This document shows positions 54,114 to 59,493 of a stretch of DNA of 64,000 nt, in pieces. A program made the translations under genes and the position numbers. Each line of letters opens with the position of its first letter. Positions within the stretch are counted from its first letter, which is position 1. The notes beneath the pieces are model-generated. The model had not been told where the DNA came from. It worked only from the letters and a program-made list of their open reading frames with translations, and made no database searches. Source of the DNA: an uncultured Lentisphaeria bacterium (GTDB lineage Bacteria; Verrucomicrobiota; Lentisphaeria; Victivallales; Victivallaceae); NCBI GenBank assembly GCA_949298075.1, contig CASFVA010000013.1:1-64000 (forward strand), read 5' to 3'.

Positions 54114-55874
54114 ATGTTTTCACTTCACTTCTGCCGCCGGTGGTTTTCACTGCTGATTCTGTCGTGCTTCACCTTGCTGACAACGGGGGCCGAGCTGGGC
54201 AATGCCGGCAATTCCGCCCGCAACGGCGGCCAGTGGCTCCGGCTCGGTCTCAGCGATCTCTCCGGAGTTCCGGCGGGAACTCTCAATGCCGCCGGAGTGG
54301 ATTTCAAAATCGGCGACGGCGCCCGCTCCTGCCTGCTGCTCAGCCGCCGCGCCGGCTTTGAGCCCTCCGCCGTTGTGCCCGTCACTCCGCCCGAGGGCGG
54401 ACCGGGGTCGGCGTTATATCTGCTGCACGCCGGAACCGGGCTGCGCGGCACCCCCGGAGAGGTGGTCATCGAGTACGCCGACGGAACCTCGGACAAACGG
54501 CCGGTCCGCGCCGGGGTGGAGCTCTCCGACTGGAAACGTCCCGGCCTGCCCGGAGTCAATGCCGGACGGGGCTGGACTGCATATTCCGGCGACACCCAGA
54601 TTTCGCTGTACGTTTCGGCGTTTCCGCTGAAAAAGGCGGTCAAATCCCTGACATTCCGCCTGAACGAACAACAGAAGCCCGGTCCGGTCTGGTTCATCGC
54701 CGGCATCGCCATTGCTCCGGAACGCCAGCTCGACCCCCTGACTCCGGAATTCCGGATCCGCGGCAGTTACCCGGCTCCGCCGCCGCGGTTCGCCGGACCG
54801 TCCGACTCCGCCGGCATCCCCCGCAACATCATCCTCATCATCGGCGACGGCATGGGCTTCGGCTCCCTGCGGGCGGCTTCGAATTACGCCGCCGGCGAAC
54901 CCGGACGGCTGCTGATGGAGCAGCTGCCGGTTCACGGTCTGGTCGAAACCTACTCCGCCAACCAGCAGATCACCGATTCCGCGGCCTCCGGAACCGCCCT
55001 GGCCTGCGGTTTTAAAACCGACAACGGCAAAGTCGGCGTCAGTCCGGCCGGAATTCCGCTGCGCTCCATCACGGAAGCGGCTCTGGCCGCCGGCCGGTCA
55101 GTCGGAATCCTGACCAGCGACTCGCTCACCGGCGCCACTCCCGCCGCTTTCAGCGCCCATGTCGGCTCCCGCCGGGAACTGGCCGCCATTGCCGCCCAAC
55201 AGGCCCGTTCCGGCATCGACGTTCTGCTGGGGAACGCCGCGTCGGCTGCGGCTTTCCTTCACCGGGGCGAACCCGGATCCATCCGGACCGATGACGACCA
55301 GCCGCTGCGGGAACTGGCCGCCCGGGGCTATACCCGGGTGTCCGATCTCAAGGAGTTTCAGCAGGCCGGTCCGGGCAAGGTGTTCGGTTTTCCGGAACTT
55401 CCGATGGAAGACCCGGAACGTCCCGCCGCTTTTCTCCGGGTAATGTTGGAGCGGCTCAACGCCAATCCCAGGGGCTTTTTCGCCATGATCGAATGCCATT
55501 GGCCTGACTACGGCGGCCACAGCAACAACCCCGACGCCACGGTGGCCGGAGTGCTCGCCGCCGACTTTGTCGTCCAGGCTGCACTGAACTTCGCCGCCGC
55601 CAGCCGGGACACCCTGGTCATCGTCACCGCCGACCACGAAACCGGGGTGGTGACGGCCGCCCGAAATCCGGCAGATCGCCGGGAGACCCTGGTTTACTAC
55701 AGTTCGACCGGACACTCCGCCGCCCCGGTGCCGCTCTTTGCGGCCGGCCCCGGAGCCAACTGCTTCGGCGGACTTCTGAGAAACACCGACATACCGCGCC
55801 GGCTGGAGCGGCTGTGGATCCCGGAAACAGCAAGGCCGGAGGCGACCAACCCGGCAGCGGCAGTGAAAAAATAA
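54114..55874 (+). CDS. Secreted alkaline phosphatase with N-terminal beta-sandwich extension
   Basis: 586 residues. A signal peptide (LLILSCFTLLTTGA) is followed by about 170 residues that are predicted to be a beta-sandwich (WLRLGLSDLSGVPAGTLNAA; SLYVSAFPLKKAVKSLTFRL), not part of the usual enzyme. The phosphatase domain begins at NIILIIGDGMGFG, with the nucleophile S289 in TDSAASGTA, the later metal ligands at MIECHWPDYGGHSN and VTADHETGVV. The domain is complete and should release phosphate from monoesters outside the cytoplasm. The long extension may anchor it to a polymer or surface; that is inference. Confidence 0.88.
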   Translation: MFSLHFCRRWFSLLILSCFTLLTTGAELGNAGNSARNGGQWLRLGLSDLSGVPAGTLNAAGVDFKIGDGARSCLLLSRRAGFEPSAVVPVTPPEGGPGSALYLLHAGTGLRGTPGEVVIEYADGTSDKRPVRAGVELSDWKRPGLPGVNAGRGWTAYSGDTQISLYVSAFPLKKAVKSLTFRLNEQQKPGPVWFIAGIAIAPERQLDPLTPEFRIRGSYPAPPPRFAGPSDSAGIPRNIILIIGDGMGFGSLRAASNYAAGEPGRLLMEQLPVHGLVETYSANQQITDSAASGTALACGFKTDNGKVGVSPAGIPLRSITEAALAAGRSVGILTSDSLTGATPAAFSAHVGSRRELAAIAAQQARSGIDVLLGNAASAAAFLHRGEPGSIRTDDDQPLRELAARGYTRVSDLKEFQQAGPGKVFGFPELPMEDPERPAAFLRVMLERLNANPRGFFAMIECHWPDYGGHSNNPDATVAGVLAADFVVQAALNFAAASRDTLVIVTADHETGVVTAARNPADRRETLVYYSSTGHSAAPVPLFAAGPGANCFGGLLRNTDIPRRLERLWIPETARPEATNPAAAVKK

Positions 55875-55989: not shown

Positions 55990-57018
55990 GTGAAAAAATC
56001 TGCTGTTTTGCTGATCGCCGGAGCCGCGGTCCTGGCCGGATGCCAGAACGAAGTCATGACCAACCGCCAGTACCGTCCGGCGCCGGGCAGTGAAATTCCC
56101 GCTCCGATGATGGAAGTCGAACCTCAGCGCACTCCGGGCGCCACGCTGCCGGTCACTCAGGAGGAACCGGTCAGCGCCACCCCCGGAACCGATGCGGTGA
56201 CGCCTCCGACTTACGCTCCGATGGTCTACACCGGAAAAGCCACCACCGGCATCATTTCCGACACCAAAACCGTCGCTCCCGGTGGAACTTATGTGGTCAA
56301 GGCCGGTGACACCGCCGGCAAAATTGCGCTTGCCCACCGGGTGAAGCTCGCGGATCTCATGCGCGCCAACAACCTCACTGATAAATCCGCCCGCCGGATC
56401 CGGGTAGGACAGAAATTGATTATTCCCGGCGGCAAAACCGTCAAATCCACCGGCGCGGCAACTGCCGCCGCTTCGACCCGCAGTGACGCGGCGGCCACGG
56501 CTGCCGGCGGCATTTATGTGGTCAGGGCCGGCGACACCATCGGCAAGATCGCCTATGCCCACCGGATCAAATCCGCCGATCTCATGCGCGCCAACAACCT
56601 GAATGAACAATCCGCCCGCCGGCTCCAGATCGGCCAGAAACTGGTGATGCCCGGCGCGGCGGCGCCAACGGAAACAACGGCGGCTCCGACCGCGGTAACG
56701 GACCCGGTCACAGCCCCGGTCACGACTCCGGTCACGGACAGTCTTGACGCTGAACTGGATCAGGCCACCACGGTCACGGTGACTCCGGAGTCCGGAACCG
56801 CGACAACGGTTGTCACCACGGACACCGCGGTGACCGTCCCCGCGGACAACATGGTGTCGGTGGCGGACTCCGTCATGGTCGAGGTTGAGGCTGACGTTTC
56901 CATCGAAGACTTCGCCAGACAGAACAACGTCACCGTCGATGAACTGCGTCGGGCCAACGCCGACGTCAAGAGTGACTCGTTCAAGAAGGGCGATCTGGTG
57001 TTCGTTCCCAAAAAGTGA
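55990..57018 (+). CDS. LysM-domain lipoprotein, peptidoglycan-binding
   Basis: 342 residues, starting with GTG after a strong AAGGAGG. The lipobox VLAGC puts the lipidated cysteine at residue 18. Two clear LysM domains follow at about 96-145 (TYVVKAGDTAGKIALAHRVK) and 175-225 (IYVVRAGDTIGKIAYAHRIK), separated by threonine/alanine-rich linkers. A third, diverged LysM-like unit ends the protein (VSIEDFARQNNVTVDELRRA). No catalytic domain is present, so it probably tethers the outer membrane or a partner to peptidoglycan. It has its own promoter and terminator. Confidence 0.9.
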   Translation: MKKSAVLLIAGAAVLAGCQNEVMTNRQYRPAPGSEIPAPMMEVEPQRTPGATLPVTQEEPVSATPGTDAVTPPTYAPMVYTGKATTGIISDTKTVAPGGTYVVKAGDTAGKIALAHRVKLADLMRANNLTDKSARRIRVGQKLIIPGGKTVKSTGAATAAASTRSDAAATAAGGIYVVRAGDTIGKIAYAHRIKSADLMRANNLNEQSARRLQIGQKLVMPGAAAPTETTAAPTAVTDPVTAPVTTPVTDSLDAELDQATTVTVTPESGTATTVVTTDTAVTVPADNMVSVADSVMVEVEADVSIEDFARQNNVTVDELRRANADVKSDSFKKGDLVFVPKK

Positions 57019-57039: not shown

Positions 57040-57072
57040 ACCGCCGGGGCGTCATAACTCCGACGGTTTTTT
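57040..57072 (+). terminator. Terminator of the LysM lipoprotein gene
   Basis: ACCGCCGGGG and CTCCGACGGT pair with one mismatch and one G-T pair around an 8-base loop, followed by five T. The 225 bp from here to the PilT start show no ORF, promoter or repeat that I can support. Confidence 0.6.
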
Positions 57073-57297
57073 GATAACCGGGCGGATCCCGCCGGAACCT
57101 CGGCGCTGATCTTTCCCGGTGCCGCCGGAGGGGCGCACACCGGACCTTTCCCGGAACACAACTCGGGGAAGAAGCGGAGGCGTCGCGGCAAACCATCCGG
57201 CTCCCGGAGCGGCCGAGCAGAGGTTATCCGGGGAAAGCCCCCCGAAGTGCGGCGGCCCGATACGCGAACTATCAATTTTCTCAACGGAGGATCATGC

Positions 57298-59493
57298 ATG
57301 GACATCGTTGAACTGCTCAAGTACGCTTTCACTTCCGGAGTTTCCGATCTGTTTCTCACCGCCGGCAAAGCCCCGTCCTACCGGATTAACGGCCAGATCT
57401 GCCAGGGGGAGAACGAGGAACTCATTGACGGCGCGGCCATCGACAGTTTCCGCAGACAAATGCTCTCGCGGGAAAACGAACAGTGTTACGACCGGCAGGG
57501 CAGTTTTGTCACCGCCGCCTCCCTGGACAGCGGCGAACGGTTCCGGCTGAGTTTCATGCTCACCAGTTTCGGCCCCGGCCTGGTGGCGCGTCCGGTGCCC
57601 GCCGGCGACGAACTCTATATCGAACCGCTGGGTCTGCCCGCCGGGCTGGCCGACATCGTCGAACGCCGCAGCGGACTCATTCTGATCGCCGGCGCCGGCG
57701 GCAGCGGCAAGTCAACCACCGTCGCCACTCTGGTCAATCTCATCAACGAAAAATCCAGCCGTCACATCATTTCCATCGCTTCGCCGATCGAATTTCTGCA
57801 CAGTGACCGGGCCGGTTTGGTTTCGCACCGCGACCTCAGCGAAACCGGCGGCAGTTTCGCCGCCGCCCTGACGGAATCCCTGAGGGAGAGTCCGGACGTC
57901 ATCGCCATCGGCAACCTCGACACCCCAGCCGCCATCCGCGCCGCCGTGGAAGCCGCCCGCAACGGCCGGCTGATCATTGCCGAAATTGATTCCGCCAATA
58001 CGGTGGAAGCAGTGGAGCGCGTCGTATCGGCATTCGCTCCGGAAGAACAGGAAAACGCCGCCCGGGAACTGGCGAAGTCCCTGCTCGTGGTCATCGCCCA
58101 GCGGCTGATTCCCCGCAGCGACAATGCCGGAATGGTGGCAGCGGTCGAACTGCTCAGCATCAACTCCATGGTGCGCCGCCTGATTGGCGAACGGGATTTT
58201 GAAGCGTTGTCCGAAGCGCTGCGGCGCGGCCAGGGCGGAGCGCTGGTCACGTTCAACAAGGCGCTGTTCCACCGTTATCAGGAAGGCTTTGTCACGGCCG
58301 AATCCGGTCTGGCCTACAGTGACAATCCCGACGAACTCCAGCTGCTGATCAACGGCAACGCTGAAAATGTTGAAAAACAATACGGTACACCCGAGGACGC
58401 CGAAGACGGCAGCGGGGTGGTCGACCTCAATCTGCTGCTGCGCACCGCGGTGAAAATCGGGGCATCGGACCTGCACTTGTCGGTCAACTCCAAGCCGGTA
58501 ATGCGGGTTCACGGTGAACTGCGCCCGCTGGAGCTGCCGGTGCTGACCCCAAAGGATACCGAGCGGCTGCTCTTCGGCATTCTGACTCCCCGCCAGCGCC
58601 TCAATTTCATTGAAAAACGGGAACTGGATTTCGCCCATGCCGTGACCCTTGATCCGGCAGAATACGACGGCGCCACCGAATGCCGGTTCCGTATGAACGG
58701 CTACTTCCAGCGCAACAACATCGGGGTGGTGGCCCGGGTCATCACCAGCGACGTGCCGTCGCCGGAATCGCTCCATCTGCCGGATGCCGTAATGGAGCTT
58801 TGCGAAAAACAGCAGGGACTGATTCTGGTCACCGGCCCCACCGGCAGCGGTAAATCAACCACGCTGGCCAGTCTGATCAACAAAATCAATCATACCCGGG
58901 CCGAGCACATCATCACCATCGAGGACCCGATCGAGTATGTTCACATCAACGACAAGTCGCTGATCCAGCAGCGCGAAGTTGGCGCCGACACTCTGAGCTT
59001 CTCGACCGCGCTGCGCGAAGCCCTGCGTCAGGACCCGGATGTGATTCTCGTCGGCGAAATGCGCGACCGCGAAACCATTCAGGCCGCGCTGACCGCCGCC
59101 GAGACCGGCCACCTGGTCATGGCGACGCTGCACACCAACAGCGCACCGCAGACCATCGACCGTATCATCGACTCCTTCCCGGAAGGGCAGCAGAACCAGA
59201 TTCGGCTTCAGCTTTCCAGCGTCGTCATCGGCATTGTGTCACAGCGTCTGCTGAGCCGGGCCGACACCGAAGGCCGGATTGCCGCTTTCGAAATTCTGAT
59301 CGGCACGCCGCCGGTTCAGGCGCTGATCCGCGAAGGCAAGTCCAGCCAGCTGCCGTCGGTCCTCGAAACCGGCTACAAGGACGGCATGATCACCATGCGC
59401 CGGTCGCTGGAAAACCTGCTGGCCGACGGCCTGATTTACCAGTCCGAAGCCGACAGCCTTTCGCTCGAGGCGGTCGAAGTCGAGGCATTCTGA
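57298..59493 (+). CDS. Tandem-fused PilT-like ATPase: degenerate N-half, intact C-half
   Basis: 731 residues, twice the length of PilT, and made of two PilT units. The C-half (about 375-731) is complete: ASDLHLS, Walker A GPTGSGKSTT (513-522), Asp box IEDPIEYVH, Walker B ILVGEMRD with catalytic E587, and the His box GHLVMATLHTN. The N-half (1-360) keeps the fold and a Walker A (GAGGSGKSTT, 132-141), but the Asp box reads IASPIEF, Walker B is AIGNLDT with N206 in place of the glutamate, and the His box is GRLIIAEIDS with both histidines gone. It would pull back a pilus or pseudopilus, with pseudo-subunits alternating with active ones. Start 57298 follows GGAGG. Confidence 0.85.
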   Translation: MDIVELLKYAFTSGVSDLFLTAGKAPSYRINGQICQGENEELIDGAAIDSFRRQMLSRENEQCYDRQGSFVTAASLDSGERFRLSFMLTSFGPGLVARPVPAGDELYIEPLGLPAGLADIVERRSGLILIAGAGGSGKSTTVATLVNLINEKSSRHIISIASPIEFLHSDRAGLVSHRDLSETGGSFAAALTESLRESPDVIAIGNLDTPAAIRAAVEAARNGRLIIAEIDSANTVEAVERVVSAFAPEEQENAARELAKSLLVVIAQRLIPRSDNAGMVAAVELLSINSMVRRLIGERDFEALSEALRRGQGGALVTFNKALFHRYQEGFVTAESGLAYSDNPDELQLLINGNAENVEKQYGTPEDAEDGSGVVDLNLLLRTAVKIGASDLHLSVNSKPVMRVHGELRPLELPVLTPKDTERLLFGILTPRQRLNFIEKRELDFAHAVTLDPAEYDGATECRFRMNGYFQRNNIGVVARVITSDVPSPESLHLPDAVMELCEKQQGLILVTGPTGSGKSTTLASLINKINHTRAEHIITIEDPIEYVHINDKSLIQQREVGADTLSFSTALREALRQDPDVILVGEMRDRETIQAALTAAETGHLVMATLHTNSAPQTIDRIIDSFPEGQQNQIRLQLSSVVIGIVSQRLLSRADTEGRIAAFEILIGTPPVQALIREGKSSQLPSVLETGYKDGMITMRRSLENLLADGLIYQSEADSLSLEAVEVEAF

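Follow-up and report, generated by a model that had tools for sequence, protein, structure and literature searches.

A PilT-PilT fusion protein of Lentisphaeria with a motif-degenerate N-terminal half

PilT is a single-domain ATPase that assembles as a homohexamer. Structures of PilT show that T221 extends from one subunit to H230 at the site of its neighbor and that R195 and D161 form a contact across the subunit interface (PMC6858323); PilB has an equivalent contact between T411 and H420 (PMC5424180). In Vibrio, Pseudomonas and Acinetobacter, PilT is accompanied by PilU. Each of the two assembles into its own homohexamer and the hexamers interact; retraction driven by PilU is still possible when PilT is ATPase-deficient (PMC6821130). 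None of the literature searched described two PilT proteins fused to each other, and we found no chain with two PilT domains among solved structures.

The stretch of DNA analyzed here (the window; 64,000 nucleotides from an uncultured Lentisphaeria bacterium) carries a gene that the initial annotation had described as two PilT ATPases joined in one chain. The frame begins at an ATG at 57298, seven bases downstream of a Shine-Dalgarno sequence (GGAGG, 57286-57290), and runs to 59493 with no interruption. The architecture of the gene is as follows.

57298..59493, + strand: PilT-PilT fusion gene, an open frame of 731 amino acids with two pilT_fam domains
57298..58332, + strand: N-half (residues 1-345), a PilT fold that is catalytically degenerate
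58354..58419, + strand: linker (residues 353-374), predicted to be disordered, with pLDDT below 50 at residues 354-360 and 364-372
58420..59463, + strand: C-half (residues 375-722), a complete PilT domain

The presence of two PilT folds in one chain was confirmed by two matches to TIGR01420 (pilT_fam) and by an AlphaFold model made with 50 homologues, in which both folds were predicted confidently (mean pLDDT of 89), were separated by about 20 residues (disordered at about 354-372) and were placed relative to one another with no confidence (pTM of 0.53). As to the initial claim that both are complete, the fold bears it out and the family model does not. By score, the whole protein (722 bits; NCBIfam) belongs to TIGR01420, the PilT/PilU family of type 4a pilus ATPases, and the C-half alone (451 bits) also exceeds the curated cutoff of 319.1 bits, but the N-half alone (274 bits) falls below it; the N-half of another fusion, the second of this genome, scored 356 bits. 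The best matches in the PDB, by both sequence and fold, were PilT proteins, each matching one half at a time. Geobacter metallireducens PilT4 (PDB 6OJX-6OLM) resembles each half in fold and the C-half in all motifs, whereas the window chain departs from the single-domain homohexamer in having two domains, one of them degenerate. Given the two domains in its chain, we class the protein as a two-domain variant within the PilT family and not as an ordinary PilT.

All of the residues named in the initial annotation (Walker A, IASPIEF, N206, the His box and E587) read as claimed in the two halves.

57691..57717, + strand: N-half Walker A, GAGGSGKST (residues 132-140), retained
57778..57792, + strand: N-half Asp box, ASPIE (161-165), with the first E and the D lost and the Mg-binding E165 kept
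57913..57915, + strand: N-half Walker B position, where N206 replaces the catalytic Glu
57961..57990, + strand: N-half His box, NGRLIIAEID (222-231), with N, R and D at the equivalents of T221, H223 and H230
58834..58860, + strand: C-half Walker A, GPTGSGKST (513-521), by motif reading
58921..58935, + strand: C-half Asp box, EDPIE (542-546), by motif reading
59056..59058, + strand: C-half catalytic Glu, E587, by motif reading and alignment
59104..59133, + strand: C-half His box, TGHLVMATLH (603-612), with H605 and H612, by motif reading and alignment

The C-half thus contains Walker A, the Asp box, the Walker B Glu and the His box in full; its EDPIEY begins at residue 542, and residues 161 to 166 of the N-half read ASPIEF. 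In the numbering of Geobacter PilT (PMC6858323), the window N-half carries Ser at D161, Asn at T221, Arg at H223 and Asp at H230, such that R224 and D231 stand at the His-box histidine positions. It keeps the Walker A Lys (K138), the Mg-binding Glu (E165) and the equivalent of R195 (R196) and lacks the rest of the catalytic motifs. With these residues, the N-half is probably a nucleotide-binding domain with poor turnover or none.

Related fusions were sought in other genomes, as the initial annotation had proposed, and at least one PilT-PilT fusion was present in 27 of the 34 genomes sampled from this genus. Several families of the order and of the class also had fusions, with named Victivallaceae and Lentisphaeria genomes among the carriers, and the phylum sample contained none in other classes (12 loci with long frames or neighboring matches were inspected). 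Candidates for an independent fusion in an Obscuribacterales genome and in a proteobacterial genome proved to be two adjacent separate genes. In a tree of the separated halves, all 53 N-halves formed one clade (support of 1.0) and the C-halves formed another that included one contig-truncated fusion (support of 0.627), with the two halves of the window protein nested in the respective clades of what we define here as the Lentisphaeria PilT-PilT fusion family. The simplest history that accounts for these two clades is a single ancient fusion of two PilT-type genes, and on this tree the fusion apparently arose once.

The window gene or an orthologue was found in seven of the 34 genomes; a second fusion accompanies it in six of these, the exception being an assembly of only 77% completeness. 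The six orthologues are 60 to 62% identical to the window protein, are motif-degenerate in the N-half and have uninterrupted frames. A stop codon or frameshift between the halves, named beforehand as grounds for discarding the fusion, was therefore not encountered, and the seven open orthologous frames rule out a frameshift, an assembly artefact or a chance origin. The second fusion of the window genome (L002/L010) shares the architecture of the window protein (41% identity in the N-half and 62% in the C-half) but, unlike it, has all catalytic residues in both halves.

Relatives with an intact N-half, the other outcome named beforehand as counting against the initial annotation, are in fact the rule. 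Outside the window's clade, 43 fusions were aligned. All 43 retain the catalytic Glu, the first His, R195 and the Mg-binding Glu in the N-half, and D161 and H230 are each retained in 42. The pairing of a probably non-hydrolyzing N-half with an intact C-half consequently stands for one paralogue in seven genomes but not as a property of the fusion itself. In a tree of whole fusions (FastTree), the window protein and its six orthologues formed one clade (support of 1.0) lying beside intact fusions of a neighboring genus (support of 0.966), and this placement, together with the intact N-halves elsewhere, indicates that the N-half decayed after the fusion. By its sequence relationships, then, the half-dead protein is a paralogue derived from a fused ATPase specific to this class. 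Within the clade, the N-half has lost D161, T221 and H230 in 7/7 members and R195 in 6/7, the window copy being the one that keeps it as R196; the Walker A Lys and the Mg-binding Glu were never lost (7/7 each). The asparagine in place of the catalytic Glu, claimed from N206, is real in the window but is private to this genome, since five of the seven members have Glu and one has Asp. The C-halves of the clade keep the Walker A Lys, the Mg-binding Glu, D161, R195, T221 and H230 in all seven.

Decay of fusions was also observed in another family of the class (genome G131), where one fusion (L105; G131:C50:12500-17665) lacks the catalytic Glu and His in both halves and has Arg for the N-half Walker A Lys, and a second (L138; G131:C84) shows partial losses in both halves. 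Judged by these residues, the G131 fusions are a separate and more extreme decay.

The fusion gene in the window directly follows a LysM lipoprotein gene, which is itself preceded by a gene for an alkaline phosphatase family protein (54114-55874).

55990..57018, + strand: LysM lipoprotein gene, upstream of the fusion and syntenic with the LysM gene that precedes the orthologues in G020 and G005
57045..57062, + strand: terminator-like hairpin with a T tail, 3' of the LysM gene

With this hairpin in place, the fusion is probably its own transcript in the window, although such sites are a weak indicator (12 found against 5.0 expected). In six of the seven genomes with the degenerate fusion, a gene for a PilB-like (T2SSE) ATPase and a gene for a membrane protein of about 200 to 250 residues with several hydrophobic segments lie directly upstream of it, an arrangement seen beside none of the 13 intact fusions compared. 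In G020 and G005, these two genes stand between the LysM gene and the fusion, and the fusion is followed by genes for RcpC/CpaB and an FHA-TadA-like ATPase. The PilB-like ATPase of these two genomes has intact catalytic motifs and hydrophobic segments at its N-terminus. The complete row (LysM lipoprotein, PilB-like ATPase, membrane protein, fusion, RcpC/CpaB and FHA-TadA-like ATPase; L043:4348-12328 and L046:5700-13625) is, from its gene content, an uncharacterized pilus-like gene cluster. Both the ATPase and the membrane-protein gene are absent between the LysM gene and the fusion in the window, and no close relative of the ATPase was found in the window genome's assembly (87% complete). An intact fusion in G108 also has a LysM gene upstream (L133:5594-9562), and the LysM-fusion neighborhood may predate the two genes that now separate its members.

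Elsewhere in the window genome are two PilB-like ATPase genes with a PilC gene after them (C54), a PilM gene (C11), a type II secretion operon (C48) and a further pair of T2SSF genes that are of the Tad kind by arrangement (C49). The PilB-like, PilC and PilM genes imply that a machine exists on which a retraction motor could act, and family membership would assign the window protein a function in retraction. The genome also has a separate pair of PilT genes that overlap by about 80 bases (L011:9184-11914; G000:C41), and in the second of these Met replaces the first His of the His box (AAMGMLVFATLHT).

How the two halves might be arranged was considered in light of the positions that were lost. 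The clade-wide N-half losses fall on the intersubunit network (T221-H230 and R195-D161), and loss of both members of each pair within N-halves, with both kept within C-halves, is what would be expected if N-halves packed with N-halves and C-halves with C-halves. We therefore considered a model in which the C-halves would pack with one another to form a catalytic PilT ring acting on the type IVa pilus at its PilC platform, while the N-halves, binding ATP without efficient turnover, would make up a further ring or cap, tethered to the catalytic ring and regulating or stabilizing it. Such an arrangement would be a covalent version of PilT plus PilU, which it resembles in bringing together two PilT-family motors of which one can be dead; PilT and PilU are separate proteins, however, whereas the window pair is covalently joined and its dead member has been fixed by evolution. 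We favor this model at a probability of roughly 0.45. The co-loss argument for separate interfaces is suggestive only: R196 of the window copy is an exception to the pattern, the contacts of T221 are made partly by the backbone, such that Asn or Ser may be tolerated there, and a relaxation of constraint could by itself account for the loss of all four residues, whatever the geometry.

The initial annotation had instead proposed a ring of three fused chains, with N- and C-halves alternating around six positions to give three hydrolyzing and three binding-only sites. Both halves have the hexamer-forming fold, the linker is long enough to bridge ring neighbors, and C3 (OCOCOC) conformations are known for PilT (PMC6858323). 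Yet in such a ring each C-half site would face an N-half that lacks T221 and, in six of the seven members, R195, even though the partner residues in the C-half are invariant. Firing by C2-related pairs has been proposed for the PilT family, and the fixed alternation would make opposite positions unlike, at odds with that symmetry. We consider the alternating ring disfavored on both counts and unlikely. A different reading holds that the degenerate fusion works in another machine that has a PilB-like ATPase and a membrane protein of its own, and no longer in retraction of the main type IVa pilus. The genes immediately upstream of the degenerate, but not the intact, fusions point in this direction, as do the RcpC/CpaB and FHA-TadA-like ATPase genes downstream in G020 and G005, but the window copy lacks these neighbors and, where they do occur, neither a pilin nor a PilC gene was seen next to them, and we regard a separate machine as quite unlikely.

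It is also conceivable that the N-half is simply a fading remnant whose role as an enzyme became redundant once a second fusion copy existed and which now serves only as a folding or docking aid. The N-half does evolve faster (42 to 49% identity between the window protein and its orthologues, against 73 to 77% for the C-half), the window copy has lost the catalytic Glu in addition to lacking the upstream ATPase and membrane-protein genes, and the decayed fusions of G131 show that such a course is not confined to this family. Nevertheless, all seven frames have stayed open, the Walker A Lys and Mg-binding Glu are invariant, and dN/dS values among four close genomes, to which this argument is limited because the window and its orthologues are near saturation, were 0.06 to 0.09 (near 0.07) for the N-half (dS of about 0.9 to 1.6) and 0.01 to 0.03 for the C-half, implying that the N-half is still under purifying selection. 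A mere remnant thus seems improbable, the least probable of the readings considered. Returning to a C-half ring with a tethered N-half ring or cap, we propose, tentatively and as rather less than an even chance, that the protein is a covalently tethered two-tier motor in which a catalytic PilT ring is coupled to an ATP-binding pseudo-ATPase ring and that it would have arisen when two active motors were fused and hydrolysis was then selectively lost from one tier.

How the PilT ring fires and why many bacteria have two retraction ATPases are standing questions. If its motifs are a guide, the window protein would be a naturally half-dead motor, and in most of its relatives both copies look active. 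The same cell holds matched natural fusions, one complete in both halves and the other in one half only, and with them the question of whether every position must hydrolyze ATP can be addressed without recourse to engineered mixtures.
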